From Pleomorphomonas carboxyditropha (lineage in GTDB: Bacteria; Pseudomonadota; Alphaproteobacteria; Rhizobiales; Pleomorphomonadaceae): 64,000 nt of DNA. Location: assembly GCF_002770725.1 (NCBI RefSeq), contig NZ_NQVN01000016.1, positions 1 to 64,000 of the forward strand, written 5' to 3'. Both the position numbers and the translations under genes were made by a program. Below the pieces are notes generated by a model, which did not search any database, was not told the DNA's origin, and was given only the letters and a program-made list of their open reading frames with translations. Every line of letters begins with the position of its first letter. Within the stretch, counting starts at the first letter, position 1. Below, in pieces: positions 12,275 through 28,961 of the stretch.

Positions 12275-12757
12275 GCCCGACTCCTTCTTTTTTATATTCG
12301 TATGTTCTCATGTTAAAATCGAAAGCGGATGTCATCCAAGATCGCATCCGCGCGAATGGATAAGTTCCCGGCTCCCCGCTCCGCGGCCTCGGGCGGTCAA
12401 CGGGGAATGGACAACGGCCTGTCAATGTCGCGTTATGGGTATCCTCCCAAAACGCCGAGAGCAAGATCGGGAAAGCCCTGTTCTTACTTGGTCGATGGCG
12501 GCGCGTTCAGCGCGCGCCACAATGACCTGGAGATAGATGAGGACGACACCGGCCCGACCGTGCCTTTCCGCTCTTGATCGCGGTTCGCGCAATTCCGGCC
12601 TTGGGGGTAGAATGGGGTGTCCGGGCAGAGCTTGGGCGTGTCGGCTGCCCGAGAGAAGGCTGTTTATCACCATAAGGATGGCCCGAGAACCGGACACGAC
12701 ATCGGTCGATGGAAATATCCGCCAGACATGTCCGTGGCGGCTTGGGAGTGAAACGAT
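12275..12757. other. Divergent promoter region between CoA-disulfide reductase and aldose epimerase genes
   Basis: About 480 bases with no credible gene. The part next to the reductase (12285-12325) is AT-rich. One copy of the shared TTATGGG operator is at 12433-12452. Confidence 0.6.
12433..12452. promoter_or_regulatory. TTATGGG operator, copy A
   Basis: TTATGGG TATCCT CCCAAAA: a dyad with a six-base spacer, one of five copies in the window with identical left arm and spacing. It lies about 160 bases upstream of the CoA-disulfide reductase start. Confidence 0.6.
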
Positions 12758-13720
12758 ATGGCTGGCCAGCACAAGCTCGTAACGATCAAGGGCGAGAGCG
12801 GTCTGAGAGCAATTCTCAGTCCGGTCGGGGCAAAGCTCGTGGCTCTTTACGTTCCGACCAGGGATGGCGGCGAGGTCCAGGTGGTCATCGGATCGTCGGC
12901 CCATCCCGACGATGTCGGCGCGGATGCCTCGGGTGGCGCCATCTGCGGTCGTGTCGCCAATCGCATTGCCGGCGGCACGTTCGAGCTCGATGGACAGCGT
13001 TTTGACCTCCCCATCAACAAGGCGCCGAACACCCTGCATGGTGGACCGGTCGGCTTTTCGCGCCGCGAGTGGACGGTGGCCAAGGCCGAGGAGTCCCTTG
13101 TCGAGTTCGGATTGCTCTCGGCGGATGGTGACATGGGATTCCCCGGGAAGCTCGATGTCAGGGCCACCTATGGTATCGAGGGCAGCTCGCTTTATCTCGA
13201 CATGACCGCCGAAACGGATCGGCCGACGCCCATAAACCTCACCAACCACGTTTATCTCAACCTCAGCGGGGCTGGCTCGGCATTGGCCCATCAGGTCGAA
13301 ATCCCGGCGTCGCACTACACGCCTGTCAACGAGGCGCTCATTCCGACGGGGAAAATCGCCGACGTGACCGGAACGCGCTTCGACTTCCGGCGTCCCAGAC
13401 CCGTCGCGGAGGATTACGACATCAACTTCTGCCTGGATGCCGGCCGTGGCCCCTCGCATCTGGCCGCGCGTCTGGTCGAACCGGACACGGGCAGGAGCAT
13501 GACGCTGTCGACCACCGAACCCGGCGTTCAGCTCTATACGGCGACCCATTTTTCCGAAGCGCTGATTTCACCCTTCTCCAAGGTCGTGAAGCACGGCGGC
13601 ATAGCGCTTGAACCTCAGACCTACCCCAATGCCATCAACGAACCGGCTTTCCCGTCTTCAGTATTGCGGCCAAGCGGGCGTTATGCTCATCGGATCGAGT
13701 GGGCGTTCTCGGGTTTCTGA
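12758..13720 (+). CDS. galM: Aldose 1-epimerase (galactose mutarotase)
   Basis: Cytoplasmic enzyme of 320 residues interconverting alpha and beta anomers of hexoses. Features of the family are visible: the GGAICGRVANRIAGG stretch (about 62-77), the sugar-binding NTLHGGPVGF (His in an N-x-L-H-G-G motif, about 93-102), the catalytic-loop His in NLTNHVYLNLSG (about 165) and the Glu-containing GGIALEPQTYPNA (about 280-292). GGGAG lies 9 bases before the ATG. It is not beside the galactoside operon at 34-42 kb but would act on its product galactose. Confidence 0.88.
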   Translation: MAGQHKLVTIKGESGLRAILSPVGAKLVALYVPTRDGGEVQVVIGSSAHPDDVGADASGGAICGRVANRIAGGTFELDGQRFDLPINKAPNTLHGGPVGFSRREWTVAKAEESLVEFGLLSADGDMGFPGKLDVRATYGIEGSSLYLDMTAETDRPTPINLTNHVYLNLSGAGSALAHQVEIPASHYTPVNEALIPTGKIADVTGTRFDFRRPRPVAEDYDINFCLDAGRGPSHLAARLVEPDTGRSMTLSTTEPGVQLYTATHFSEALISPFSKVVKHGGIALEPQTYPNAINEPAFPSSVLRPSGRYAHRIEWAFSGF

Positions 13721-13736
13721 CCTTGGGCCGGGCACT

Positions 13737-13760
13737 GGCCGGGGGGTACCTCCCCCGGCC
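13737..13760. terminator. Strong GC hairpin between convergent genes
   Basis: GGCCGGGGGG TACC TCCCCCGGCC forms a near-perfect 9-10 bp stem with a 4-base loop between the convergent epimerase and thioesterase genes. No T-run follows on either strand, so it is a terminator candidate only. Confidence 0.45.
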
Positions 13761-13818
13761 CAGGCCGGTTTCGCAACTTTGAAAAGGGGTGAGCGCCTCC
13801 CGCGCCTTTCCCTGGCCC

Positions 13819-14298
13819 TTACCGGACAGAGCGACAAAACTTGCCCTTGGCCACGGCAAATCGCGTTCCGCCCCGCGACAGGCTGGCAACCGCCTGAAAG
13901 ACGCCGTGGCGTTCGCCGATCAGCGTTGCGCCGACACAGACGTCGCAATCGACAGGTACCTCGCGCAGGAAGCGCACCGTCATCTCGGCGGTGACGGCCG
14001 TCACGCCCCGGGCGAACAGGCAGTGGACCATTGCCGCGTCGAGCAGCGTCGAGATGACGCCGCCATGCAGGATCCCCGCGTAGCCCTGGTAGCGGCGGGC
14101 CGTCCTGAAGGTGGCAAGGACGCCTCCCGCCGGATCGGGGATGAAGCGGAGCCCGAAGGCCGGCGCGTCCGGCCCGCCCTCGCCGCACACCATGCAGCCG
14201 AGGTGGGCCTTCCTGGTCTCTTCATAGGACTTCACGGCGCAGGGCGCGTCGTCCGGACAGGGCGTCCCGGTGATCGACAGACCCTCGGTGTCATACAT
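13819..14298 (-). CDS. PaaI-type hotdog thioesterase, paralogue 1
   Basis: A 159-residue single-hotdog acyl-CoA thioesterase-like protein. The active-site loop is YAGILHGGVISTLLDAAMVH, with the HGG and Asp of the family, followed by VTAEMTVRFLREVPVD. It has an N-terminal extension with a CMVCG cysteine pair. The start at 14298 is chosen because AAAGG lies 8 bases upstream; an ATG at 14313 would abut the operator copy C directly. It is divergent from the orange-protein operon. A clear paralogue sits at 24020-24415, also at an operator copy, so the pair is probably co-regulated. Substrate unknown. Confidence 0.8.
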   Translation of the reverse strand: MYDTEGLSITGTPCPDDAPCAVKSYEETRKAHLGCMVCGEGGPDAPAFGLRFIPDPAGGVLATFRTARRYQGYAGILHGGVISTLLDAAMVHCLFARGVTAVTAEMTVRFLREVPVDCDVCVGATLIGERHGVFQAVASLSRGGTRFAVAKGKFCRSVR

Positions 14299-14312
14299 TC
14301 TCGCGCCTTTCA

Positions 14313-14332
14313 TTATGGGTGTATGTGCATAA
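14313..14332. promoter_or_regulatory. TTATGGG operator, copy C
   Basis: TTATGGG TGTATG TGCATAA. It lies 14 bases upstream of the thioesterase ATG at 14298 (and touches the alternative ATG at 14313), a typical repressor position. Copy D is exactly 50 bases further on in the same orientation. Confidence 0.65.
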
Positions 14333-14362
14333 ACTGATTGCCTGTCCTCCTGTCAACGCCTA

Positions 14363-14382
14363 TTATGGGTGTATGCTCATAA
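14363..14382. promoter_or_regulatory. TTATGGG operator, copy D
   Basis: TTATGGG TGTATG CTCATAA, the most symmetric copy (outer TTATG/CATAA arms are perfect). It lies 67 bases upstream of the orange-protein-like gene at 14450, which begins the ATPase operon. Confidence 0.7.
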
Positions 14383-14449
14383 TTCATCCGAGCGTCCCAC
14401 GCGGGGCTCATCGGACGAAGGTCACCTTCCATCCAGTCGGAGCGTTCCC

Positions 14450-14788
14450 ATGAAGATCGTATTCACCCTGCAAGGCGATGGCCGCGACGGCCTCGTCGAC
14501 CGCCGCTTCGGGCGCGCCGACACATTCCTGATCTACAACAGCGAGACGGACGAACGGCAGCTCGTCGCCAACGCCGCCGTCGACGCCGCCATGGGCGCCG
14601 GTCTCAAGGCGGCGGAAAACATCGTCGCCCTCGGCGCCGTCGCACTGGTCACCGGGGAATGCGGCGTCAAGGCGCTGCACGCCCTCCATCGGGCCGGCGT
14701 CAAGGTCTACTCCACCGACAGCGCGACGTTTGAAGACGCCCTCGAAGAGTTGCGGCAGGGAAGCCTCCGCGAGGCGCAGCCGGCATGA
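14450..14788 (+). CDS. Orange-protein/NifX-like (dinitrogenase FeMo-cofactor domain) protein 1
   Basis: A 112-residue protein of the NifX/NafY/ORP fold (PF02579), a small domain that binds metal-sulfur clusters. It starts MKIVFTLQGDG, has the conserved RRFGRADTFLIY segment (about 19-30) and ends with a Glu-rich helix. A single cysteine is in TGECGVKAL. GGAG is 8 bases before the ATG. Its stop overlaps the first ATPase start (ATGA), and a DUF134 operator lies upstream. In Desulfovibrio a similar protein (ORP) is co-encoded with ferredoxin-containing MinD ATPases; a matching complex is inferred here. Confidence 0.82.
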   Translation: MKIVFTLQGDGRDGLVDRRFGRADTFLIYNSETDERQLVANAAVDAAMGAGLKAAENIVALGAVALVTGECGVKALHALHRAGVKVYSTDSATFEDALEELRQGSLREAQPA

Positions 14789-15621
14789 GGATCGCCATCG
14801 CCTCGGGTAAGGGCGGTACCGGCAAAACCTCGGTGGCGGTCAATCTGGCGGCCACCGCCGGCCGCTCCGTCACGCTGGTCGACTGCGACGTGGAGGAGCC
14901 CAACGCCCACATCTTCCTGAAGGGTGACGTCGTCGCCACCGAGACGGTTTCAATGAGGGTCCCGGCCATCGACGAGAGCCGCTGCACCGGATGCCGGGCG
15001 TGTGTCGAGTTTTGCGCTTCCAATGCCCTGATCTCCTTCGGCGGGCCACCGCTGTTTTTCGCCGACCTATGCCACGGTTGCGGCGGCTGCCGCCTCGTTT
15101 GCCGTGCCCGGGCCATCAGCGAAATTGCCCGCCCTCTCGGCGAGGTCAGGCGGATCGATGCCGCTCAGTGCACCCTGGTGGAAGGCCGTCTGGAGGTCGG
15201 CGTATCGTCGCCGGTGCCGGTCATCAAGGCGGCCAAGGCCGCCGCCAAGGGCGATTTCGTCATCTACGACGCGCCGCCGGGAACCTCCTGCCCGCTGGTC
15301 GCCACGGTCCGCGGCGCCGACTATGTGCTGCTGGTTACCGAGCCGACCCCTTTCGGCCTGTCCGACCTTCGCCTAACCGTGGAAGTCCTTCGCCAGATGG
15401 GCATGGATTTCGGCGTCGTCATCAATCGCACGGTGAGGTCCGAGAGCCTGATCCACGACTATTGCCATCACGAGGCGATCGACATTCTGGGCGAGATCCC
15501 CGACGACCGGCGGATCGCCGAGGCTTACGCCGCCGGACGGCTGATCGTCGAGGCCCTGCCCGGCTATCGGCCGCTGTTCCGATCGATTTTGGAAGCCTGC
15601 CTGGAGAGGGTGACGGCATGA
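14785..15621 (+). CDS. MinD/Mrp-type P-loop ATPase with inserted 2[4Fe-4S] ferredoxin domain, 1
   Basis: A 278-residue deviant Walker ATPase. Walker A is SGKGGTGKTS (about 7-16); the inserted ferredoxin has CTGCRACVEFC (about 69-79) and CHGCGGCRLVC (about 94-104), enough for two [4Fe-4S] clusters; Walker B-like IYDAPPGTSCP (about 160) follows. These proteins occur almost only in anaerobes and facultative anaerobes beside orange-protein-like and DUF134 genes. The gene overlaps its neighbours by four bases on both sides, so this is a tightly coupled operon. Role proposed for relatives: cluster transfer or positioning; not established here. Confidence 0.87.
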   Translation: MRIAIASGKGGTGKTSVAVNLAATAGRSVTLVDCDVEEPNAHIFLKGDVVATETVSMRVPAIDESRCTGCRACVEFCASNALISFGGPPLFFADLCHGCGGCRLVCRARAISEIARPLGEVRRIDAAQCTLVEGRLEVGVSSPVPVIKAAKAAAKGDFVIYDAPPGTSCPLVATVRGADYVLLVTEPTPFGLSDLRLTVEVLRQMGMDFGVVINRTVRSESLIHDYCHHEAIDILGEIPDDRRIAEAYAAGRLIVEALPGYRPLFRSILEACLERVTA

Positions 15622-16508
15622 AGGAACTGGTTATCCTCTCGGGCAAGGGCGGCACCGGCAAGACCAGCCTGACCGCTTCTTTTGCCTCTCTGGCGCCTGA
15701 CGCCGTACTGGCCGACTGCGACGTCGATGCCGCCAACCTTCACCTTCTGCTCCGCCCGGACGTGCAAAGCCGCGAGGCGTTCCACGCCGGCCGGGAGGCG
15801 CACGTCAAATCCGCAGTCTGTTGTGGCTGCGGGCGATGCGCGGCGGCCTGCCGTTTCGATGCCATGAGCATGACCGGCCCCAACGAGACCGCCGAGGTCG
15901 ACCCGCTCGGTTGCGAAGGCTGCGGCGTCTGCGCCTTCGTCTGCCCGACCGGTGCCATCGGCTTCAGCGATCGCATGGCGGGAGACGTCATGATCTCGGA
16001 CACACGCCGTGGCCCCATGGCCCATGCCCGCCTCGTTCCCGGTTCCGACAATTCCGGCAAGCTGGTCGCCCATGTGCGTCAGGCAGCGCGGCGTCTCGCC
16101 GAACAGCGGGCCTGCACCTTGGTGCTGATCGACGGTCCGCCCGGCCTTGCCTGCCCGACCATGGCGGCACTGACCGGCTGCGCCCATGCGCTGATCGTCA
16201 TCGAGCCTACGATGTCCGGCCTGCACGACCTCGACCGCGTTCTCGCCCTCACCGGCCATTTTTCAGTGCCGACCTCGGTCTGCGTCAACAAATGGGACAT
16301 CGACGCGGCAAAAAGCGTGGCCATTGAGCGGAACGCCCGCGCCGCCGGGGCCTATTTTGCCGGCCGCATCCGCTATGATCGTGGCGTCACCGAGGCCCAG
16401 ATGCGCGCCGAGACGGCGGTCGAGGCCGGCGTCCCCTCCGCCGCGGACATTCGTGCGGTCTGGGGCAGAATGGCCGAGCGTCTGGCGGTCGAATCCGTGA
16501 ACGGCTGA
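15618..16508 (+). CDS. MinD/Mrp-type P-loop ATPase with inserted 2[4Fe-4S] ferredoxin domain, 2
   Basis: A 296-residue paralogue of the preceding ATPase. Walker A is SGKGGTGKTS (about 8-17). The ferredoxin insert shows CCGCGRCAAAC (about 69-79) and CEGCGVCAFVC (about 98-108). Walker B-like LIDGPPGLACP follows near residue 171, and VCVNKWD near 223. The two ATPases probably work as a heterodimer, as in the Desulfovibrio orange-protein complex (known family precedent; inference here). Start at 15618 overlaps the previous stop (ATGA). It ends the operon. Confidence 0.87.
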   Translation: MKELVILSGKGGTGKTSLTASFASLAPDAVLADCDVDAANLHLLLRPDVQSREAFHAGREAHVKSAVCCGCGRCAAACRFDAMSMTGPNETAEVDPLGCEGCGVCAFVCPTGAIGFSDRMAGDVMISDTRRGPMAHARLVPGSDNSGKLVAHVRQAARRLAEQRACTLVLIDGPPGLACPTMAALTGCAHALIVIEPTMSGLHDLDRVLALTGHFSVPTSVCVNKWDIDAAKSVAIERNARAAGAYFAGRIRYDRGVTEAQMRAETAVEAGVPSAADIRAVWGRMAERLAVESVNG

Positions 16509-16860
16509 ACCGTTCCGGCCATTGGCCGGCAGCGAGCGCGGGAGCCGGTCCCGAGCTTGCGTGAATCAAAGGCCAGAACGCCTCCCGCCAGCCCCAACCA
16601 AATGCAATGAGGCCGAATAAGCTTACCTAAGAATACAACAATATTGAAGTATCAGTATTTTAAGTCGAACTTAACAATCAAAAGCATATCCAATACTGGA
16701 GGCTTGAATACGCGCACCTAGGAAGATCATGGAAAAATCCTTGCACTCTTGGTGGCAACCGGGCTGCATGGTGCGTATATTCGGTTTTTTGAATATAAAT
16801 ACAGAGTGCGCAGGTTTGAACTGCGGCTCGCTGGGCGATCCGACGGTTAAGAGGTCCACC
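16509..16860. other. Intergenic, AT-rich promoter region of the chemoreceptor gene
   Basis: About 350 bases. A CCGGCC-ATT-GGCCGG hairpin lies just after the ATPase stop (about 16515-16530). From 16600 the DNA is clearly AT-rich. An ATATTC/GAATAT inverted repeat with an 8-base loop lies near 16777-16798. An in-frame ATG at 16729 with AGGA upstream could give the chemoreceptor a 44-residue N-terminal extension. Confidence 0.5.
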
Positions 16861-18807
16861 ATGAGCAGTATTCGCGCGCGCCTTCTGACGACGATCCTGT
16901 CGCTGGCTCTTCTGGGTGCCCTTTCCATCGTGCTCGGCGCAGGCTGGATGTCCGGCGACCTGACGGGTCTGGCACTCGACCGTGAGGTCAAGAACGCTCA
17001 ATTTCAGCTTCAGGCGGAAATCGAGGCCCACAGCCGCCAGGCGTTGCTGCTGGCCAAGGTGGTCGCCGGACAGACCGACGTGCAGGCCATGCTGGCCGAT
17101 CGGAATCGCGACGGACTAGCCGCCCAGTTCGTTCCCGAGTTCGCCGAACTGAAGAAGGAATATGGAATTCAGCAGTTCCAGTTCCATCTGGCGCCGGCCA
17201 CTGCCTTTTTCCGCGTTCACCAGCCCGCCAAGTTCGACGACGACCTTTCCTCCTTCCGCAAGACCGTGGTGGAAACCAACACCACCTTGAAGCCGGTGGT
17301 CGGGCTTGAGGGCGGCGTCGGTGGCATCGGCATTCGCGGCGTGGTGCCCGTGTTCAACGGCAGCAAGCACGTTGGATCGGTGGAATTCGGCCTTGGCTTC
17401 GAGGAACTGTTCGTCACCGAGTTCTCGCGCAAGACCGGTTACCCCCTCGCCGTCGTATTGCTCCAGCAAGGCAAGGACGGCAAGAAGGGCGTCATCGGAA
17501 ACCGGTTGCCGGCTGGCATGGACCCGGAAGCCGTTCTGACCGAGACCCAGGCGAGCGGCGTCAACTCGGCCGACGGTCGCTACTTCCTATCGCAAACCAT
17601 GGTGCCCGACTATTCCGGCAAGCCCATTGCCACGGCGGTCATCGCCGTCGACCGCAGCATGTACCAGGCGATCGCCGACAAGGCGCGCAATGTCGGCCTG
17701 GCGATCGGCCTCCTCTTGCTGGTGATCGCCGGCGGCGCCCTCTTCTACGTCAATCGCGGCCTTCTGCGCCCGCTGCGCTGCGCCACGCAACACATCGCCC
17801 GCCTTGCCGGCGGCGAAACCGACTTCGAGGTGCGCAACGCCGACCGGTCCGACGAGATTGGCGGCATTCTGCGGGCGCTCCTGGTGTTCCGCGACAATCG
17901 CATCGAACAGGAACAACTGAAGTCGCAGCAACAGGCCGAGAGCGAGGAAAAGCTGCTGCGGCAACAGCGCGTCGATCGCCTGATCGGCGCGTTCCACGGC
18001 ATTGCCGGCAATCTGCTGGCCACCATGGACCGCGAGCACACGACGCTGATGGCCGCCGCCCATTCCATGGAGCGGATCGCCGGCGCCAGTCTGGAGCAGG
18101 CGGAATCGGTGATCGAAGCCTCACGCCAGACGTCGAACGGCATCGCCTCGGTGGCCAGCAGTTCGGAGGAACTGTCGTCTTCCATCGAAGAGATCAGCTC
18201 CCAGGCTGTCCGGGCGACCGAGGTCGTCACCAGGGCGACGCACGATACGGAGCGCAGCAACAGCCAGATCGCCGCGCTGGCCGAGGCCGCCAACAAGATC
18301 GGTCAGGTCGTCACCCTCATCCAGACCATCGCCTCCCAGACCAATCTGCTTGCCCTCAATGCGACCATCGAGGCGGCGCGGGCCGGCGAGGCCGGCAAGG
18401 GCTTTGCGGTCGTTGCTACCGAAGTGAAGCAACTGGCCGACCAGACCTCCAAGGCCACCGAGGAAATCGCCGCTCACGTTCAGGCCATCCAGATGTCGAC
18501 TGGCGAAGCCGTGGAAGCCATTTCGGCGATCGCGACGACAATGGGCGAAGCCAACCAGTATACCGAGGCCATTGCCTCGGCGGTGACCGAGCAGGGTGCC
18601 GCCACCGCCGAAATAAGCTCCAACATCCAGACCGTCGCCACCAAGACCGGATCCATGGTCGACAGCATCGGCCGTCTGGAACAGTCGGTCAACGCCACCA
18701 ACAGCTCGGCGACCTCGGTGCTGGTCGCCACGACCGAGGCGCTGCGCAGCAGCTCCAGCCTCAAGGAGGAAATCGAGCGCTTCCTCAGCGAGGTCGCTGC
18801 CGCCTGA
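16861..18807 (+). CDS. Methyl-accepting chemotaxis protein with large periplasmic sensor
   Basis: A 648-residue transmembrane chemoreceptor. Helix 1 is about 7-30; a long periplasmic domain (about 31-275) resembles the double-CACHE-like sensory modules; helix 2 is about 278-300; HAMP about 302-355; the cytoplasmic signalling hairpin includes [20 protein letters not shown] near residue 490. The receptor would signal to CheA/CheW encoded elsewhere. AGAGG is 6 bases before the ATG at 16861, and this start puts the first helix at the N-terminus as usual. The adjacent octaheme cytochrome suggests that the ligand may be a respiratory sulfur compound, but that is guesswork. Confidence 0.88.
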
Positions 18808-18924
18808 CGTCCGCCAGACCGGTCGTCGGACAACAATTGTCAATGACGGGTCGGGCGCGGCTCGCCATGCTGGGAAACATCTGGAACCGCCGCCATCGCG
18901 GCGGCAAGATGCGGCGGCATCGTC

Positions 18925-21143: not shown

Positions 21144-21147
21144 TCGA

Positions 21148-21864
21148 TCAGTCGCCGCCGGCCGCCAGGCGGCTCAACTGGGCGAGGTTGCAACGGCAGC
21201 GTCCGGCCGTGACGTCAGATATCGCCCCGTTCCGGCGGAAATCGGTCACCACGCGGCTTGCGTGCTCCGGCGTCATCGCCAGCATGGCGCCGAGGTTCTC
21301 GCGTGAGAAAAGAGGGGCCACGCCGTTGGCGTCGACGAGGCGGCGGAGAAGTCGGGCAAAGCGCTGCGGCGCCTTGCCGGTGGAAAGCTCGGTCAGCCAG
21401 ACGTCGGCCTCTTCGAGGGCGATTTGCCAACGTCGCATCAGCTGATCGTGCAGCGCGGGGGTCGTTCGCCGCAACCCGTCTATGGCGGTTGTGGGGATCA
21501 TGCACACCACTGCCCGCTCCAGAACGACGGCGGCGTGGCCGTAAGTGTCGCCCACCAGAGCTTCGAGACCGAAGGTGCAGGATGGCTTCACGAGGCGGAC
21601 AATCCGCTGCTGGCCGTCCGGCAGGAAGCGGAGAAGTTTGACGTAGCCCGACCGCAGCGTGAAGACGGTGGAACGGCGTTCGCCGGTCGTGTAGATCGAC
21701 ACGCCTGCGGCGTATTCGACCTCGTCCACCTGACGAAGGATGCCATCGAGACGATCGGCAGACAAGACGCCGAACAGGGAGCGTTGGCGCACTGGACAGG
21801 CCTCGCAGCGACTGTCACTCCGGGATGTCGTCGGCATGTCGCGTCTGTTCGGTGTCTCCAGCAT
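21148..21864 (-). CDS. Crp/Fnr-family transcriptional regulator
   Basis: A 238-residue regulator with an N-terminal CEACPVR motif (about 20-26), a cNMP-like barrel (about 30-145) and a winged HTH (about 175-215; SRENLGAMLAMTPEHASRVV, with E-x-x-S-R for TTGAT-like half-sites). The N-terminal cysteines and a later CRC near the C-terminus could bind an iron-sulfur cluster, but the full four-cysteine FNR pattern is not obvious. It ends 4 bases from, and is convergent with, the cytochrome b gene, so it is a candidate controller of the octaheme module. Confidence 0.82.
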   Translation of the reverse strand: MLETPNRRDMPTTSRSDSRCEACPVRQRSLFGVLSADRLDGILRQVDEVEYAAGVSIYTTGERRSTVFTLRSGYVKLLRFLPDGQQRIVRLVKPSCTFGLEALVGDTYGHAAVVLERAVVCMIPTTAIDGLRRTTPALHDQLMRRWQIALEEADVWLTELSTGKAPQRFARLLRRLVDANGVAPLFSRENLGAMLAMTPEHASRVVTDFRRNGAISDVTAGRCRCNLAQLSRLAAGGD

Positions 21865-21940
21865 CGTCGATCCCAGGTTGACGCCGCCGGCAGGCCTCCG
21901 TCATCGGGTGCAAGCTACATTCTCATTCCGAGGACGCCTA

Positions 21941-22915
21941 TCAGGTAATTCGATGCGGCGCCTCGGCGTCCCGGGCGCCTATGGCCCGAAGGCCCCGGCT
22001 GTCGTTGCCCTTCTGACCGGCGACCCAGCGCCGGATCAGGTCGGCGACCGCCCGGAACCCGGCGGCGCGCGGCGACTGCCGCCGCCAGACAAGGCCAATG
22101 GTCCGCCTGTTGACGCCGTCGGCCAACCGGACGGCCGCCACCTTGTGGTCGGACAAGAGGCCGCCGAGCACCGCGAGTTCCGGCAACAAGGTCGAGCCCA
22201 GGCCCTCGCCGACCATGGCTGTCAGCATATGCAGGCTGGTCGCCGAATAGGCGGCGTCGGCCAGCGTGGGCCAGGTGGCGAACACCGGCAGGGCATGCCG
22301 GTGCAGGCAATTCTCGCGCTCCATGAACATCATCTCCTCGCCGACCAGTTGGCGGGGCTCGACCGCGTCGAGAGAAGCGAGCGGATGATCGACCGGGCAA
22401 ACGAAGCGGAACGGGTCGTCGAACAGCATTTCGGTTTCAAAGGGACCGATGTCATAGGGAAAGGCCATCAGAACCAGATCGAGACGCCCGTCGGCAAGGC
22501 GCTCGATCAGCGCCGGCGTCTTGTCCTCCCGGAGGCCGAACACCAGGTCGGGAAGGTGTTGGCGGACAAACGGCAAGAACCGCGGCAGCAGAAACGGGCC
22601 CACGGAAGGAATGCAGCCCAGTTCGATCCTGCCGCTCAACGGATTGCCGGCCGCTTCGCCGAGTCCGAGCAGCTGTTCGGTCTCGTGCAGCACGCGGCGC
22701 GCCTGCTCGACGATGCGCAGGCCGTCCGGCGTCACCATCACCGAGCGCCGGTCTCTTTCCGCTATGCGCACGCCCAGAAGGGATTCCAGCTCGGCGATGC
22801 CGGCGCTGAGCGTCGACTGCGAAACGTTGCAGACTTCTGCAGCCTTTCGGAAATGCCGCTGCTCGGCGAGCGCGACCAGAAAGGCGAGATGGCGGATATT
22901 GGGATAGGACAGCAT
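21941..22915 (-). CDS. LysR-family regulator, OxyR-like, paralogue 1
   Basis: A 324-residue LysR-type regulator: HTH about 1-60 (HFRKAAEVCNVSQSTLSAGI) and a substrate/redox domain about 90-300. The segment MERENCLHRHALPVF aligns by eye with the peroxidatic-cysteine loop of OxyR, but the partner cysteine about nine residues on is absent (V/F there). Divergent from the SLAC1 channel gene at 23009. A related regulator with the same feature lies at 25173-26123. It may sense peroxide or persulfide by a one-cysteine mechanism (inference). Confidence 0.83.
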   Translation of the reverse strand: MLSYPNIRHLAFLVALAEQRHFRKAAEVCNVSQSTLSAGIAELESLLGVRIAERDRRSVMVTPDGLRIVEQARRVLHETEQLLGLGEAAGNPLSGRIELGCIPSVGPFLLPRFLPFVRQHLPDLVFGLREDKTPALIERLADGRLDLVLMAFPYDIGPFETEMLFDDPFRFVCPVDHPLASLDAVEPRQLVGEEMMFMERENCLHRHALPVFATWPTLADAAYSATSLHMLTAMVGEGLGSTLLPELAVLGGLLSDHKVAAVRLADGVNRRTIGLVWRRQSPRAAGFRAVADLIRRWVAGQKGNDSRGLRAIGARDAEAPHRIT

Positions 22916-23008
22916 GGCTTCTGATCGGATTTTACGATTACCGTGTCCACTTTAATTTGCTTTTCAGACTACAGGCAATGCCCTATTCGGAAAAACACGA
23001 AGATCAAC

Positions 23009-24004
23009 ATGGGTGGTAAGGCAATGACGGCAGTTTCCCTCGCGACAGATCGGACCGACCGGCTTGCGCATTTTCCCGTTTCTTTCTTCTCCGTTGTCAT
23101 GGGCCTTGCCGGCCTTGCCATCGCCACGCACAAGCTCGAAGGGGCAGCCGGCCTGGGTGGAACCGCCGGCTCCGTCCTGTTCTGGACGGCGGGCGCCGTC
23201 TACGCGGCGATCGTTTGCGTCTATCTCGTCAAGATGCTGCTGAAGCCGGCCGCCGTGGCCGCCGAATGGCGGCATCCGGTCCGCATCGCCTTCTTTCCGG
23301 CCAGTTCCATCGGGCTCATTCTGCTGTCGATCGCCGCCCTTGGCGTGGCGCCCGGGCTGTCCTTCTGGCTATGGCTTGCCGGCTCCGCTCTGCATTTCGC
23401 GTTCACCATCATGGTGATCACGGCCTGGATCGATCACTCGCGCTACGAGGTGATCCACCTCAACCCTGCCTGGTTCATCCCGGTCGTCGGCAACATCCTG
23501 GTCCCGATCGCCGGCATCCGGCATGCGCCCGCCGACGTTTCATGGCTGTTCTTCTCGGTGGGGCTGCTGTTCTGGCTGGTGCTGCTCACCGTGGTCGTCA
23601 ACCGCCTGATTTTCCACAGCCCGCTGCCGGCGCGACTGATGCCGACGCTGTTCATCCTGATTGCCCCTCCGGCCGTGGGTTTCATTTCCTGGACGGCGCT
23701 GAGCGGCGGCATCGATTCCTTCGGCCGCATCCTATTCTTCTCGGCGATCTTCTTCTTCCTGATGATGCTGCCGCAGCTTGGCAAGTTCGCCCGCCTGCCC
23801 TTCACCCTGTCCTGGTGGGCTTATTCCTTCCCGCTGGCCGCGCTCACCATCGCCCAGTTCGCCATGGCGGAAAAAGGCGGTGTGGCATTCTACCGCTGGA
23901 TCGGCTTCGGCCTTTACGGCCTGCTGGCCGTGCTGATCGCCGCGCTCGCCGTCCGCACCGTCGTCGCCATGGTGCGCGGCGAAATCTGCGTGCCCGAGCA
24001 CTGA
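23009..24004 (+). CDS. SLAC1/TehA-family anion channel or transporter
   Basis: A 331-residue polytopic protein with about ten membrane helices, typical of the TDT/SLAC1 family, including an HFPVSFFSVVMGLAGLA start and the aromatic gate region (FSAIFFFLMMLPQLGKFAR). Family members move tellurite, sulfite, C4-dicarboxylates or anions. Starts at 22943, 23009 and 23024 are possible; 23009 is chosen because it keeps the LysR-target spacing and follows GAAGA. It is divergent from an OxyR-like LysR gene. In this sulfur-rich setting, sulfite or another sulfur anion is a reasonable guess for cargo. Confidence 0.8.
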   Translation: MGGKAMTAVSLATDRTDRLAHFPVSFFSVVMGLAGLAIATHKLEGAAGLGGTAGSVLFWTAGAVYAAIVCVYLVKMLLKPAAVAAEWRHPVRIAFFPASSIGLILLSIAALGVAPGLSFWLWLAGSALHFAFTIMVITAWIDHSRYEVIHLNPAWFIPVVGNILVPIAGIRHAPADVSWLFFSVGLLFWLVLLTVVVNRLIFHSPLPARLMPTLFILIAPPAVGFISWTALSGGIDSFGRILFFSAIFFFLMMLPQLGKFARLPFTLSWWAYSFPLAALTIAQFAMAEKGGVAFYRWIGFGLYGLLAVLIAALAVRTVVAMVRGEICVPEH

Positions 24005-24019
24005 CCGGCCACCCACTGG

Positions 24020-24415
24020 TCAGGCGCGGCGGCGAAACTTGCCGGTCGCCCTGGCCAACGGCCTGTCATCCAGGGACAGGCCGGCCGACAGCAGGAAAAG
24101 GCCGTGGCGCGCCGAAACCAGCACTGCCCGGAGATCGACCGTCCTGTCGAGTGGGACTGGTCGCAGGAAGCGCACCGTCATCTCCGCCGTCACGGCCAAG
24201 ATCCCCTTGGAGAACAGGCACTCTCCCATCGCCGCGTCGAGAAGCGCCGAGATCATGCCACCGTGCAGGGTCCCTTCGTAGCCCTGGAATCGGGCCGAGG
24301 TTTCAAAGCTGGACCTCACGCCATCCGGTCCGTCGAGCGTGAAGACGAGGGCGAGCAAGGCTGATACGAAATCCGCCTGCTCGCACCCCTCCGGATTATT
24401 CGTGTTCTTGAGCAT
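24020..24415 (-). CDS. PaaI-type hotdog thioesterase, paralogue 2
   Basis: A 131-residue single-hotdog thioesterase-like protein. The active loop YEGTLHGGMISALLDAAMGE and the following VTAEMTVRFLRPVPLD closely repeat those of the protein at 13819-14298. It lacks that protein's N-terminal cysteine-containing extension. Its ATG at 24415 lies inside operator copy E, so bound regulator would block initiation directly. Convergent with the SLAC1 gene. Substrate unknown; probably an acyl-CoA or related thioester. Confidence 0.78.
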   Translation of the reverse strand: MLKNTNNPEGCEQADFVSALLALVFTLDGPDGVRSSFETSARFQGYEGTLHGGMISALLDAAMGECLFSKGILAVTAEMTVRFLRPVPLDRTVDLRAVLVSARHGLFLLSAGLSLDDRPLARATGKFRRRA

Positions 24416-24425
24416 ATGCCCATAA
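24406..24425. promoter_or_regulatory. TTATGGG operator, copy E (minus orientation)
   Basis: On the minus strand TTATGGG CATATG CTCAAGA. The thioesterase ATG sits in the spacer, as does an opposite ATG; the methyltransferase gene begins 159 bases away on the plus strand. Confidence 0.6.
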
Positions 24426-24583
24426 ACAGGCCGCCTGGGCCGGGAGCAACACCGATTTGGCACTCCCCCCACAATTCGGGGAGCCGGCCCGGCCAGCATT
24501 TCGGCGGCTGCCGATGGACAGCCGGCGCGTTGATCGGCATGTTGTGCGCCGATCGCTGGGCGTTATCGCAAGGACAGACCGTC

Positions 24584-25183
24584 ATGCCGTCATGGGACGA
24601 GGAATTCTCCAAACCGGGTTACCGCTACGGCACGGAGCCAAACAGTTTTCTCGTCGAGATGGCCGGGCGTCTGCCAGCGGGCGCGCGGGTGATCGCCGCC
24701 GGCGATGGCGAGGGGCGCAACGGTGTGTGGCTGGCGACCGAGGGGCACCACGTTCTGGCGCTCGACGCCTCGGCGGTCGGCCTTGCCAAGGCGCTGGCGC
24801 TGGCCGATGAGCGCGGCGTGACCATCGAGACCGCCGTCGTCGACCTTTCGACCTACCAGCCCGAGGTGGCCAGTGCCGACGCGGTGGTGCTGATCTACGT
24901 CCACATGCCTCCGGCGGTTCGGCGCGCTGCCCACCGCAATCTGGTGCGCACCCTGAAGCCCGGCGGACTGATCATCCTCGAGGCCTTTCATCGCGATCAG
25001 TTCGGCCGCACGAGCGGCGGCCCGAAGGATGTCGCCATGCTGTTCGACCTAGCGCATCTCGCCGAGGATTTCGGACCGGACATTCGCGCCGTCCATAGCT
25101 TCGAAGGCGATATCGACCTCGACGAGGGGCGCGGCCATATCGGCCGCAGCGCGATCGTTCGCTTCGTCGGCGTCAGGATCTGA
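24584..25183 (+). CDS. SAM-dependent methyltransferase (TehB-like class I)
   Basis: A 199-residue class I methyltransferase. Motif I is VIAAGDGEGRNGVWLA (about 36-51), the acidic motif II is LALDAS (about 59-64), and motif IV-VI includes VLIYVHMP and LKPGGLIILEAFH. Members of this small group include TehB-like and thiopurine/chalcogen methyltransferases that detoxify metalloids or thiols. AAGGA is 8 bases before the ATG at 24584. Its end overlaps the end of the convergent LysR gene by 11 bases. Co-regulation with the thioesterase across the operator is possible. Confidence 0.8.
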   Translation: MPSWDEEFSKPGYRYGTEPNSFLVEMAGRLPAGARVIAAGDGEGRNGVWLATEGHHVLALDASAVGLAKALALADERGVTIETAVVDLSTYQPEVASADAVVLIYVHMPPAVRRAAHRNLVRTLKPGGLIILEAFHRDQFGRTSGGPKDVAMLFDLAHLAEDFGPDIRAVHSFEGDIDLDEGRGHIGRSAIVRFVGVRI

Positions 25184-26123
25184 CTTCGCCGTTGCTGCGC
25201 CACGGCTGTATTTCGGCCTTGGCCCAGCTGTGCAGAAAATCGCCGATGTCCATGAAGGTCTGCGCCCGTCCCGACTGGCGCCGCCAGGCAAGGCCGACGC
25301 TACGCCTGTTGGCTTCCCCCGAGATCGGGCGGATGGCGATGTCGCTTCCGCCGGCCATGCCGCCGGTGATCGCCAGATCGGGCAACAGCGTCGCCCCCAT
25401 ACCTTCGGCCACCATGGCGATCAGCGTTGGCAGACTCGTCGCCGAAAAGGCCGCTTCGGCAACCGCTGCCGCTTCGAGCAGCGGCAGCGCGTGGCTGTGC
25501 AGGCAGTGGTCGCGTTCGAGCAGCATCAGCGGCTCGCCGATGAGCTGGTCCAGTCCGATGCGTGGCGCCCTGGCGAGAGGATGGCTGGCGGCACAGGCGA
25601 AGCGATAGGCGTCGTCGAACAGCATCATGGTCTCGAGCCCCTCCGTCTCATAGGGAAAGGCGATCAGCACCAGGTCGAGCCGGCCATGGGCGAGCCGATC
25701 GAGCAGCGCACCGGTTTTGTCCTCGCGCAGGGCAAAGCGCAGTTCGGGAAAGCGCTTGCGCAGTGCCGGAATGATCCGTGGCAGTAGGTAGGGGCCGATG
25801 GTCGGGATCGTGCCGAGCGCGATGGTGCCCGAAAAAGGTGCGGCCGCTTCGGTGGCGATATCGAGCATGTCATCGACGGAGCGCAGCAGCGCCTGCGCCT
25901 TCTCAGCCAGAACATGGCCGATCGGCGTCAGGATCACCGAGCGCTTGGTCCGCTCCGCCACCTGTATGCCGAGCATCGTCTCGAGTTCCCGGATGCCGGC
26001 GCTGAGCGTCGACTGGGTGACCGCCGATGCCTCGGCCGCCTTGCCGAAATGCCGATGTTCGGCAAGCGCGACGAGATAGGCGAGATGTCTGAGGTTGGGG
26101 TAGGCGCGCATCGTAATTGCCAT
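25173..26123 (-). CDS. LysR-family regulator, OxyR-like, paralogue 2
   Basis: A 316-residue LysR regulator clearly related to the one at 21941-22915 (shared RHFxKAAE HTH, DGRLDLVLMAFPY-like segments, CLHxHALP). The loop LERDHCLHSHALPLL has the OxyR-type peroxidatic cysteine but, as in paralogue 1, no second cysteine at the resolving position. An in-frame ATG at 26111 aligns better with paralogue 1. It is divergent from the persulfide dioxygenase-peroxiredoxin-TauE set, which it most likely controls. About 90 AT-rich bases separate them. Confidence 0.83.
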   Translation of the reverse strand: MAITMRAYPNLRHLAYLVALAEHRHFGKAAEASAVTQSTLSAGIRELETMLGIQVAERTKRSVILTPIGHVLAEKAQALLRSVDDMLDIATEAAAPFSGTIALGTIPTIGPYLLPRIIPALRKRFPELRFALREDKTGALLDRLAHGRLDLVLIAFPYETEGLETMMLFDDAYRFACAASHPLARAPRIGLDQLIGEPLMLLERDHCLHSHALPLLEAAAVAEAAFSATSLPTLIAMVAEGMGATLLPDLAITGGMAGGSDIAIRPISGEANRRSVGLAWRRQSGRAQTFMDIGDFLHSWAKAEIQPWRSNGEVRS

Positions 26124-26216
26124 CTTCGATCATAGTGACAAGTTTTATTCGTTTCCATGTGATTTAGAGATTGCTTATGTAAAGAGCAACGAAAAACACA
26201 ACCGGGGTTGAAAGCC

Positions 26217-27104
26217 ATGAGCGAGGCAGCCAGCAACCCGATCGGCCGGCCCGACGTGACCGCCTTTCCCGATCTGGATACCAACACCATCAGCTACGTG
26301 GTCGCCGACACGGCGACGGGGGCGGCGGCCATCGTCGATGCCGTGCTCGACATCGACTATGCTGCCGGCCGCCTCGGCTACCACTCCGCCGACGCGATCA
26401 TCGATTTCGTCCGGACGCGTGGCCTGTCCGTCGAGTGGCTGATTGAAACGCACGTCCATGCCGACCACCTGTCGGCCGCGCCCTATATCCAGCAGGCGCT
26501 CGGCGGCAAGATTGGCATCGGCGACAAGATCACCGTCGTTCAGGATACCTTCGGCAAAGTGTTCAACGAGGGCACCGAATTTGCCCGCGACGGCAGCCAG
26601 TTCGACCGGCTGTTTGCCGATGGCGACCGGTATGCCATCGGCATGCTTCAGGCGGTGGCGCTCTCGACGCCCGGCCACACGCCGGCCTGCATGACGCATG
26701 TGGTCGGCGATGCCGCCTTCGTCGGCGACACCCTGTTCATGCCCGACGCCGGAACGGCCCGCGCCGACTTTCCCGGCGGCGACGCCCGCGCCCTGTATCG
26801 CTCGGCCCGACGCATTCTCGCGTTGCCGCCCGAGACGCGGCTGTTCATGTGCCACGACTATGGCACCGAAGAGCGCGGCATGGCCTGGGAAACGACGGTT
26901 GCCGACGAGCGGGCCAACAACACCCATGTCGGCGACGGCATCGACGAGGACAGCTTCGTCGCTCGCCGCACGGCCCGCGACGCCACGCTCGACATGCCGC
27001 GCCTGATCCTGCCGTCGCTGCAGGTCAACATGAAAGCCGGACGGCTGCCCGAACCGGACGACACCGGCAAACGCTTTCTCAAGGTGCCGATCGACGGCCT
27101 TTGA
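26217..27104 (+). CDS. Metallo-beta-lactamase-fold hydrolase, persulfide dioxygenase (ETHE1/Blh)-like
   Basis: A 295-residue MBL-fold protein with metal ligands in THVHADH (about 79-85), LSTPGHTPACMTHV (about 152) and DTLF...D (about 169-178), plus the late HDYG loop. The sequence resembles the bacterial Blh/ETHE1-type persulfide dioxygenases that oxidise glutathione persulfide to sulfite; mono-iron use is typical of that group. The ATG at 26217 is taken; a TTG at 26208 is an alternative. A peroxiredoxin and a TauE-type exporter follow, giving a plausible route: persulfide to sulfite, then sulfite export (inference). Confidence 0.83.
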   Translation: MSEAASNPIGRPDVTAFPDLDTNTISYVVADTATGAAAIVDAVLDIDYAAGRLGYHSADAIIDFVRTRGLSVEWLIETHVHADHLSAAPYIQQALGGKIGIGDKITVVQDTFGKVFNEGTEFARDGSQFDRLFADGDRYAIGMLQAVALSTPGHTPACMTHVVGDAAFVGDTLFMPDAGTARADFPGGDARALYRSARRILALPPETRLFMCHDYGTEERGMAWETTVADERANNTHVGDGIDEDSFVARRTARDATLDMPRLILPSLQVNMKAGRLPEPDDTGKRFLKVPIDGL

Positions 27105-27143
27105 GGTTTTTGTGTCCACCCCCAACCCCAACGAGGATAAATC

Positions 27144-27872
27144 ATGAGCTGCACCGAATCCGCCCCCAAGACCGTCGAAGCGCCGGCCGTCGTCGTCGCT
27201 CCCCTGCCGGTGGCCGCCGCGGCGGCACCGATCGCCCCGGTCGTCAGCCTGCCGCGCATCAACGAACAGGCGCCGGCCTTTGCCGCCAAGACGACCTTCG
27301 GCCCCCGCTCGCTTGCCGACTACAAGGGCAAGTGGCTGGTGCTGTTCTCCCACCCGGCCGACTTCACGCCGGTCTGCACCACCGAGTTCATCGCCTTCGC
27401 CAAGGCGGCCGATGAGTTCAAGTCGATCGGCACCGAGCTGCTCGGCCTGTCCATCGACAGCATCTTCTCGCATATCGCCTGGGTGCGGAACATCGAAGAG
27501 AAGTTCGGCGTCGCCATCCCCTTCCCGATCATCGAAGACCTCAAGATGGATGTCGCCAAGGCTTATGGCATGATCCATCCGGGGGCCGGCGATACCTCGG
27601 CGGTGCGCGCCACCTTCATCATCGATCCCGAGGGAATCCTCAGGGCCATGGTCTACTATCCGATGACCAACGGCCGTTCGGTCGCCGAGATCATGCGCCT
27701 CGTCAAGGGCTTGCAGACCAGCCTGAAGAACGGCGTCGCCACCCCCGAGGGCTGGCAGCCGGGCGACAAGGTTCTGGTCGGCGCGCCGGTCACCGTCGAG
27801 GACGTCAAGACCCGCCTCGCTGCCGGCCTCGAGACCACCGACTGGTACTTCTCGAAGAAGAAGCTGGCCTGA
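27144..27872 (+). CDS. Peroxiredoxin (AhpC/Prx6-like, 1-Cys type)
   Basis: A 242-residue thiol peroxidase. The peroxidatic site is PADFTPVCTTEF (Cys about 78), and VRATFIIDPEG and the C-terminal TPEGWQPGD tail fit the Prx6/archaeal-AhpC class. No C-terminal resolving cysteine is present; the only other cysteine is Cys3. The first 35 residues are an Ala/Pro/Val-rich tail that precedes the usual start of the fold. It follows the persulfide dioxygenase gene by 39 bases with a good initiation region, so the two are probably co-transcribed. Confidence 0.87.
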   Translation: MSCTESAPKTVEAPAVVVAPLPVAAAAAPIAPVVSLPRINEQAPAFAAKTTFGPRSLADYKGKWLVLFSHPADFTPVCTTEFIAFAKAADEFKSIGTELLGLSIDSIFSHIAWVRNIEEKFGVAIPFPIIEDLKMDVAKAYGMIHPGAGDTSAVRATFIIDPEGILRAMVYYPMTNGRSVAEIMRLVKGLQTSLKNGVATPEGWQPGDKVLVGAPVTVEDVKTRLAAGLETTDWYFSKKKLA

Positions 27873-27898
27873 TAAGGCGCGCCCCGCCCGAAGCAATT

Positions 27899-27926
27899 GC
27901 CGAGCCGGCGGAAACGCCGGCTCGGC
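27899..27926. terminator. GC hairpin with GAAA tetraloop
   Basis: A perfect 12-bp stem (GCCGAGCCGGCG / CGCCGGCTCGGC) closed by a GAAA loop between the peroxiredoxin and TauE genes. It lacks a following T-run, so it may be a partial terminator or an mRNA-stabilising structure. Confidence 0.5.
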
Positions 27927-27968
27927 GAAGACGCTCCGGACAGGCCGTGACGCGAGCAAACCGACGGA

Positions 27969-28760
27969 GTGAACGACGTGCTGTTTGAAGCCTTTGCCGC
28001 CGTATTGTCCGGCGCGTTGTCCGGTTTCGTGCTCGGCCTGATCGGCGGCGGCGGCTCGGTGCTGGCGACACCGCTTCTACTCTACTTCGTCGGCGTTGCT
28101 TCGCCGCATATTGCGCTGGGCACCGGCGCACTCGCCGTCTCGCTCAACGCTTTTGCCAATCTCGCTGGGCATGCCCGCAAGGGCCACGTGCTCTGGCGCT
28201 GCGCCATCGTGTTCTCCGCCTTCGGCATGGCCGGCGCCTTTCTGGGGTCGACGCTCGGCAAGCTGATCGACGGCGACATGCTGCTGTTCCTGTTCGGCCT
28301 CGCCATGGTCGCCGTTGGTCTGTCCATGCTGCGCCCTCGCCGGCTGCAGCCGGGCGAGCGGCCGGCGATCACCCGCAAAAGCTGCGTCCGCGCCGCCGGC
28401 ATGGCGGTGCTGACCGGCGCCGCTTCCGGATTCTTCGGCATCGGTGGCGGCTTTCTCATCGTGCCCGCCCTGATCCTGGCCACCGGCATGGCCACCATCA
28501 ATGCGGTGGGCAGCTCGCTGATGGCGGTTGGCGTCTTCGGCCTGACGACGGCGATCAACTACGCCGCCTCCGACCTGATCGACTGGGTGGTCGCCGCCGA
28601 GTTCCTGGCTGGAGGTCTTTTGGGCGGTCTCGTCGGGCTTGGCCTCGCGAGCCGCCTTTCGGCAAACAAGGACGCCCTCAACCGCGTTTTCGCGGCAGTC
28701 GTCTTCATCGTCGCCACTTATGTCCTCTACCGTGCAGGCAGCACACTCTTCACGAGATGA
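27969..28760 (+). CDS. TauE/SafE-family sulfite/anion exporter
   Basis: A 263-residue membrane protein with eight predicted helices in two repeats, each opening with the Gly-rich family motif (GLIGGGGSVLATPLLLY near 24-40 and GFFGIGGGFLIVPALI near 155-170). TauE/SafE proteins export sulfite, sulfoacetate or other sulfur anions. It begins with GTG at 27969, 42 bases after the hairpin that follows the peroxiredoxin gene. Context suggests disposal of sulfite made by the persulfide dioxygenase. Confidence 0.85.
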   Translation: MNDVLFEAFAAVLSGALSGFVLGLIGGGGSVLATPLLLYFVGVASPHIALGTGALAVSLNAFANLAGHARKGHVLWRCAIVFSAFGMAGAFLGSTLGKLIDGDMLLFLFGLAMVAVGLSMLRPRRLQPGERPAITRKSCVRAAGMAVLTGAASGFFGIGGGFLIVPALILATGMATINAVGSSLMAVGVFGLTTAINYAASDLIDWVVAAEFLAGGLLGGLVGLGLASRLSANKDALNRVFAAVVFIVATYVLYRAGSTLFTR

Positions 28761-28941
28761 GCCTTAGCTCCCAGCGCCAACGGTCGATCCTTCGCCCGGT
28801 TTTGTTCGCCATTGGAGCACCGCGCCGTTCCTGCATCTCCCCTTGGCAATTTGTTCTTCCGCCAGGCCTGCAATTCACGCCTCCACCGGTTTCGGGTATA
28901 CGTGCATCACCGACTATCGGCTCGATCCCGTTCGGATCATG

Positions 28942-28961
28942 TTATGGGTGCATTCCCAAAA
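28942..28961. promoter_or_regulatory. TTATGGG operator, copy B
   Basis: TTATGGG TGCATT CCCAAAA ends 10 bases before the ATG of the DUF134 gene, so the site overlaps its ribosome-binding region and probably its promoter. This suggests autoregulation by the DUF134 protein. Confidence 0.65.

Follow-up and report, generated by a model that had tools for sequence, protein, structure and literature searches.

A DUF134 protein as the probable binder of an inverted repeat before its own gene and before orange-protein genes in Pleomorphomonas carboxyditropha

Introduction

The DNA considered here (the first 64,000 nucleotides of contig NZ_NQVN01000016.1 from Pleomorphomonas carboxyditropha, called the window throughout) raises the question of which protein would act on a short inverted repeat that recurs before genes for orange proteins and MinD/NBP35-like ATPases, for thioesterases and for a flavoprotein that we take to be a CoA-disulfide reductase. 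One copy of this dyad ends directly before the gene of a small protein of the DUF134 family. We consider it very probable that this protein, as a predicted dimer, binds the dyad before its own gene and before the genes just named, and it would repress them by covering the -10 region.

The protein belongs to DUF134/UPF0251 (PF02001), a family that presumably corresponds to COG1342 and of which some sources already annotate relatives as 'predicted DNA-binding protein (UPF0251 family)':

28972..29352, plus strand: DUF134 (UPF0251) protein, 126 amino acids; PF02001 at 77.9 bits (cut-off 27), profile positions 5-96 of 98

Among the titles and abstract beginnings of the Creative Commons-licensed literature in PubMed Central, we found nothing that assigns these proteins a function, an operator or a regulon, although earlier work may exist elsewhere, and a search of the literature for the literal operator strings returned nothing relevant. 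Genomes, contigs and loci are cited below by our own G, C and L numbers, G000 being the genome of the window.

Sites in the window and the whole genome

The preliminary description of the window had reported five sites, A to E, and all of them are present in the sequence with the arms, spacer, coordinates and strands given there. While arms and spacer were right, it had missed that the sites form an inverted repeat of 20 bp, TTATGRG-N6-CYCATAA, as well as a sixth, weaker copy (B'):

12433..12452, plus strand: site A, TTATGGGTATCCTCCCAAAA, 158 bp before the CoA-disulfide reductase/rhodanese gene, which lies on the minus strand
14313..14332, plus strand: site C, TTATGGGTGTATGTGCATAA, distal dyad in the divergent promoter region of thioesterase 1 and orange protein 1
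14363..14382, plus strand: site D, TTATGGGTGTATGCTCATAA, perfect dyad (0 mismatches), proximal site of the orange protein 1/ATPase operon
24406..24425, minus strand: site E, TTATGGGCATATGCTCAAGA, covering the presumed ATG of thioesterase 2 (24418)
28890..28909, plus strand: site B', TTTCGGGTATACGTGCATCA, degenerate distal dyad from the matrix scan, 52 bp before B (start to start)
28942..28961, plus strand: site B, TTATGGGTGCATTCCCAAAA, putative proximal operator of DUF134, ending 10 bp before the ATG at 28972

Sites C and D are 50 bp apart, a layout like that of B' and B. The left arm TTATGGG occurs seven times in the window against 2.4 expected, a number that none of 100 shuffles reached; two of these copies, at 6821 and 13229 on the minus strand, had not been named before. 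A motif scan of the whole genome (5.88 Mb), as the preliminary description had proposed, found only A, B and D at up to one mismatch and eight places at up to two mismatches, five of which are A to E. At the rate of the remaining genome, 0.008 such sites would be expected per 16.5 kb. The other three places (C7:73283, C21:24191 and C44:33631) lie inside or beside long open frames, and at up to three mismatches there is no excess (86 matches versus 90 for a reversed-pattern control).

DUF134 and the dyad in the genus and family

In a family sample of 20 genomes, 14 of them from the genus of the window, DUF134 was found in 13, all of the same genus; the gene is missing from G010 and from the six genomes outside the genus. 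In all 13 genomes that have the gene, a dyad with no more than one mismatch immediately precedes it, and six of the seven genomes without the gene have no match at all. The seventh, G003, has one match elsewhere, which is the level of the reversed-pattern control (matches in 4/20 genomes, once each). The co-occurrence of gene and dyad is significant (Fisher p 1.3e-5, or 1.8e-4 when the G003 match counts as a site). G015 has one further dyad match besides its DUF134 site. Partial PF02001 matches near or below the cut-off were excluded from the site counts, namely five lower-scoring ones (G007, G009, G011, G012, G017), G000:C4:105828 and most of the weak matches at order and phylum level.

The paired layout is likewise conserved, as all 13 DUF134 promoters of the genus have a second dyad 52 bp upstream, and the orange-protein promoter has a pair 50 bp apart in four genomes (the window, L049, L051 and L053). 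In G008 (L055) the orange-protein promoter has only the proximal dyad, before a broken ATPase frame; both the CoA-disulfide reductase and the ATPase frames of that genome appear fragmented (L055, L056). Site A stands before the CoA-disulfide reductase of the cluster in G000, G013, G014 and G016, in the latter three about 160 bp before the orthologue (L183-L185). Since DUF134 and the cluster of orange-protein and CoA-disulfide-reductase genes lie on different contigs in G013, G014 and G016, the shared sites are not explained by one local duplication. No upstream site was found at longer CoA-disulfide reductase paralogues about 82% alike (9/9 loci: L186, L187, L189-L191, L202-L205), nor at the G010 copy (L194). 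The genome of the window itself has such a longer CoA-disulfide reductase/rhodanese paralogue (G000:C64:81770-83500, 81% identity, open frame of 840 amino acids), which is also siteless.

The same genomes bear on the idea that another regulator, whether Crp/Fnr, ArsR/SmtB or LysR, owns the dyad and that DUF134 is merely one of its targets. The window does contain a Crp/Fnr gene (21148-21864, with Crp/Fnr domains in the Pfam scan) and two LysR genes. A close relative of the Crp/Fnr protein (80% identity) is present in just three of the 13 genomes that have both the site and DUF134 (G013, G016 and G000), a phyletic pattern that rules it out as the binder.

The dyad outside the genus

It is likely that DUF134 binds the dyad before its own gene, as the association extends far beyond the genus. 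The best 80 loci, 77 of them outside the genus, were taken from a search with an alignment of 25 DUF134 proteins, and every locus was scanned over its full length with a symmetric matrix built from the five window sites alone. In 49/77 out-of-genus loci, including an archaeal one, the top-scoring position fell within 200 bp upstream of DUF134, against 1.35 expected, and the best upstream score reached p<=0.05 against Markov shuffles in 61/77. Compared with windows of the same loci matched for GC content, 54 of the 73 testable upstream regions reached p<=0.05 and 45 reached p<=0.01. The loci, mostly from metagenome bins, include Desulfobacterota, Acidobacteria, Verrucomicrobia, Nitrospirae, Planctomycetes and Bacteroidetes as well as a metagenome-assembled genome of Hermodarchaeota. 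Typical site forms are TTATGAGCATATGCTCATAA and TTATGAACATATGTTCATAA, and the archaeal one (L078) is TTATGAATATAAATTCATAA.

A hold-out set was formed of 40 further loci from order and phylum searches, one of which had 43 matches above the cut-off and yielded loci from 30 of them; one locus (L243) was a duplicate, leaving 39. A dyad at p<=0.05 lay within 300 bp upstream in 24 of them, each time as the best of its locus of about 3 kb. With an operator-like dyad at its promoter in 13/13 family genomes and recurring outside the genus, DUF134 would be autoregulated, as the preliminary description had suggested from the position of site B.

ArsR regulators were further candidates for owning the dyad. 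Their 12-2-12 operators look similar (PMC8790569), and a related palindrome is found at the start of one ArsR gene (L140). ArsR relatives were found by tblastn in 2/80 loci (L140, L068) and not in the window, which disfavours them as binders; that search used one query and a distant ArsR could escape it.

Covariation of protein residues and operator bases

A further link between DUF134 and the dyad comes from its recognition helix (63-83), in which the motif [VI]-S-R-X-T-F-G-R has a variable residue X. In the window protein X is S64, and R68 follows on the same helix. The upstream site of each locus was picked independently of X and its half-site bases were then compared with X. Pro is paired with AA or AG at bases 6-7, Ala with AG and Gln with AG or GG, while His and Arg go with C at base 6 and Ser with GG (in the genus) or CA. 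Among 39 proteins of <70% identity, mutual information with X is 0.56 and 0.61 at bases 6 and 7 (null 0.17 and 0.16; p 0.0002) with little or none at the eight remaining half-site positions. When the variable columns of the protein were each scored against bases 6-7, residue 64 came out on top of 67 (z 18.7; runner-up 11.0), and it kept this place among 68 columns once the set had been thinned to <70% identity (z 9.9; runner-up 4.7).

Pairs of proteins were also compared at matched identity. In pairs of 40-60% identity, bases 6-7 are shared at 0.75-0.79 when X is equal versus 0.34-0.45 when it is not, with little difference at the remaining positions (0.72-0.75 versus 0.69-0.72), and at 60-70% identity the sharing of bases 6-7 is 0.70 versus 0.48. 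The residue-64 rule taken from the first set also gained 17.5 bits on the new loci (permuted -20.2, standard deviation 10.5; p=0.0012, n=23). A second residue behaves in a similar way, as Arg at residue 68 goes with G at base 5 in 102/122 half-sites of the first set and 32/38 of the new one, and Asn or Leu with T in 6/6 and 10/10. In an AlphaFold2 model of the protein (mean predicted local distance difference test score 73.9; blocks over residues 31-90 at 87-96), residues 64 and 68 both fall within the initial turns of helix 63-83. Residue 64 would contact bases 6-7 and residue 68 would be a second base contact, to base 5. DNA specificity in the family tracks the recognition helix, and the proposal of the preliminary description that DUF134 is the binder gains from three sides, namely the presence and absence of gene and dyad over the 20 genomes, the dyad far outside the genus and the two covarying residues, all of which make direct binding probable from comparison of sequences.

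The covariation was calculated on DUF134 proteins alone, and that the bases are predicted by the family's own recognition helix leaves it very unlikely that some other regulator owns the dyad. That the motif is chance or an effect of promoter composition, an AT-rich -10-like sequence with its mirror, is scarcely credible: the dyad does overlap -10 elements, and a few AT-rich matches score 14-18 elsewhere, but the Markov and GC-matched controls, the genome-wide count, the phyletic agreement and the hold-out covariation contradict it.

Promoter geometry

Binding by DUF134 leaves the direction of its effect to be read from the promoters. Among 55 sites, TTGAC begins 8 bp in front of the dyad in 10 and 21 bp in front of it in 7, and in the new loci its start lies 26 bp before the site in 6/24 and 8 bp before in 3/24. 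With a spacer of 16-18 bp these positions would place the -10 element inside one dyad arm, which is the geometry of occlusion. In the window one such arrangement can be read:

14338..14366, plus strand: promoter-like TTGCCT-N17-TATTAT, a consensus match and not a proof, whose -10 overlaps the left arm of site D

By eye, L049 and L053 have TTGTGC-N17-TATTAT at the same place. Repression by overlap with the -10 element is read only at site D and in other taxa, since no such promoter is seen at site B.

An activator would be another way to use the same dyad: DUF134 could bind it and recruit RNA polymerase through its helix-turn-helix, which resembles sigma region 4, or could serve as a local roadblock or architectural protein. 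The fold, which also resembles the DeoR domain, the lack of a -35-like element at site B and a distal dyad that often lies just upstream of TTGAC (by eye) are in line with this. However, in many taxa the proximal dyad overlaps the -10 element or sits in the stretch from -35 to -10, as expected of occlusion, and the archaeal site ends next to the frame start. We regard these roles as unlikely, and repression is what the overlap with TTGAC and -10 elements suggests.

A second dyad was seen in 18 of 60 out-of-genus promoters (null 1.1), in 13 of them 47-58 bp away (null 0.1). A tandem at 50 or 52 bp corresponds to about five helical turns, which suggests two dimers on one face of the DNA, and these may cooperate. 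Divergent promoters were considered as the full reason for the pairs and rejected, because the distal dyad persists where the longest upstream frame is codirectional (L058, L059), an argument that long spurious frames weaken.

Candidate targets

The genes behind the sites, with those around them, are the following:

10529..12274, minus strand: CoA-disulfide reductase-like flavoprotein with rhodanese domain (Pyr_redox_2 and Rhodanese)
13819..14313, minus strand: thioesterase 1 (hotdog 4HBT), PF03061 at 40.1 bits, possible second ATG at 14298
14450..14788, plus strand: orange protein 1 (Nitro_FeMo-Co domain), PF02579 at 71.1 bits
14785..15621, plus strand: MinD/NBP35-like ATPase 1 with ferredoxin motif (CbiA, ParA/NUBPL, Fer4)
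15618..16508, plus strand: MinD/NBP35-like ATPase 2 with ferredoxin motifs (CbiA and Fer4 families)
24020..24418, minus strand: thioesterase 2 (hotdog 4HBT), start uncertain, PF03061 at 45.1 bits
29358..29756, plus strand: orange protein 2 (Nitro_FeMo-Co domain), PF02579 at 59.8 bits, 5 bp after DUF134

The window has the parts of an orange-protein (ORP) module, that is, Nitro_FeMo-Co proteins with two MinD/NBP35-like ATPases carrying ferredoxin motifs. The family matrix gives a score of >=20 to 11 sites other than those before DUF134, and 8 of these precede homologues of window targets. Genes behind strong sites include:

L071, L103, L116: orange protein 1 homologue
L097, L134: ATPase homologue
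L089, L095, Pseudovibrio: thioesterase homologue
L123: CoA-disulfide reductase homologue
L084:10848: frame read as an orange protein
L084:6879: gene without Pfam match, just before DUF134
L140:935: ArsR gene

Scanning 12 of these genomes with the consensus at up to two mismatches gave 13 sites in eight genomes and none for the reversed control. Seven of the 13 lie before DUF134, one before a CoA-disulfide reductase, one before an ATPase and one before a gene preceding DUF134; the remaining three are copies of TTATGCGCATATGCGCATAA in G310, one being the ArsR site. Three loci from other classes of the window's phylum that were checked (L215, L216, L218) have a Nitro_FeMo-Co gene behind a strong site distant from DUF134, and L215 also has a 4HBT thioesterase gene running divergently from DUF134, giving the same three partners as in the window.

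The targets previously assigned to sites A (CoA-disulfide reductase), C (thioesterase 1) and D (orange protein 1 and the ATPases) thus recur outside the genus. Site E is present over the presumed ATG of thioesterase 2, as had been described, while no counterpart of it was found in the loci of relatives examined. The methyltransferase, which had been offered as a possible further target of E, is not supported as one: the homologue in L049, L051 and L053 sits past the 3' end of the CoA-disulfide reductase gene, and the several hundred bp in front of it contain no site.

As for the neighbouring genes, an aldose epimerase-like gene (12758-13720, label from reading) lies between thioesterase 1 and site A and is missing between the same neighbours in L049, L051 and L053. 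Upstream of DUF134, the genes at 26217-28760 (a metallo-beta-lactamase-fold protein, a 1-Cys peroxiredoxin-like protein and a TauE-like transporter) have no dyad of their own at matrix threshold 8.

Link to the orange proteins

In 17/80 loci (16 by tblastn, and L119) the reading frame of DUF134 continues into an orange-protein domain, and all ten joined frames that were scanned carry PF02001 and PF02579 over the cut-offs (L069, L072, L082, L103, L108, L116, L119, L127, L129, L138). The further joined frames are L075, L080, L083, L085, L101, L110 and L121. Most of the joined frames hold an internal Met before the second domain (by eye), so that separate translation of the two domains is possible. 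Two DUF134 genes per locus were seen in L073, L074, L076, L082, L083, L086, L090, L107, L108, L110, L129 and L138, often with one of them joined to, or preceding, an orange protein.

For orange proteins of this kind, either a Mo-Cu sulfide cluster or Fe-S clusters have been reported (PMC6345978). Because the genes are joined or adjacent and metal-sulfur clusters have been reported, our leading guess is that the orange protein is the sensor, with the state of its cluster as the possible input to DUF134 and with orange protein 2 as a separate partner in the window. Cysteines were also counted in the presumed tail, delimited by a rough rule (at least one in 56/80 DUF134 proteins, at least two in 40/80), but joined orange-protein domains, cut at 200 residues, are counted in, and no conclusion on a cysteine sensor follows.

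Discussion

The dimer, its direct contacts with the dyad and the cooperation of two dyads are all predicted, and the overlap with promoter elements suggests repression. Several observations weigh against this picture. No significant upstream site was detected in 16/77 out-of-genus loci with the Markov shuffles, four of which (L084, L097, L116, L134) have a strong site elsewhere in the cluster, nor in 15/39 new loci, and 4/12 genomes have no consensus match at two mismatches. Of eight loci on the gammaproteobacterial side (L212-L219, all belonging to other classes within the phylum of the window), five lack an upstream site and carry a strong one roughly 1 kb past the start of DUF134, so autoregulation does not hold for every member. 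At site B no sigma70-like promoter could be recognised. The two pairs with unequal X at 80-100% identity share bases 6-7 fully (1.00 versus 0.92), and the p values of the covariation are optimistic because related sequences and the two half-sites of a site are not independent. ArsR-type operators look alike, and the strong TTATGCGCATATGCGCATAA matches in G310 include one before an ArsR gene.

The genome G310 deserves a word of its own. This Verrucomicrobia bin (L140:935; L179, L180, L181) has three copies of TTATGCGCATATGCGCATAA as a perfect palindrome, perhaps belonging to another regulator with a similar operator.

One comparison is with the ORP complex of Desulfovibrio vulgaris, which like the window combines a single-domain orange protein with two ferredoxin-motif ATPases (PMC6345978). 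Its regulator DVU2106 binds palindromes, as DUF134 is predicted to do, and overlaps its own sigma70 promoter (PMC3897727). In contrast, activation there is by a sigma54 enhancer-binding protein with IHF, and the window has a small DUF134 candidate with promoters that look sigma70-like. Autoregulation is a habit of the ArsR/SmtB family. Their 12-2-12 repeats resemble the dyad as palindromes over promoter elements, one or two per promoter (PMC8790569), although these regulators are a separate protein family and the bases of the dyad follow the recognition helix of DUF134. Sulfane-sulfur repressors (SqrR/BigR, sHdrR/SoxR and CsoR type) also have targets in sulfur and persulfide chemistry, according to abstracts, and they too belong to other protein families. 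The best structural and sequence neighbours of the DUF134 helix-turn-helix are the DNA-binding domain of DeoR/SorC and sigma region 4 (7bhy has an E value of 4.4e-5, and ranks 1, 3 and 5 in another search), but the similarity is only local, with no Foldseek match at E <= 0.001.

It is tempting to go further and see in DUF134 an ancient bacterial and archaeal repressor family with a two-residue code, with the orange protein as its sensor and with control over orange-protein, NBP35-type ATPase and CoA-persulfide chemistry, but we hold this wider proposal as tentative and somewhat doubtful. Even so, a widespread domain of unknown function would gain an operator, a regulon and contacts that can be tested, all of them predicted, and the residue-to-base code would permit the prediction of DUF134 sites in other genomes. 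Orange proteins and their ATPases are poorly understood, and the two-domain frames hint at what the signal may be. A shared switch would tie these proteins to the CoA-disulfide reductase and the thioesterases, and points to a common job in the handling of sulfur, redox or metal clusters.

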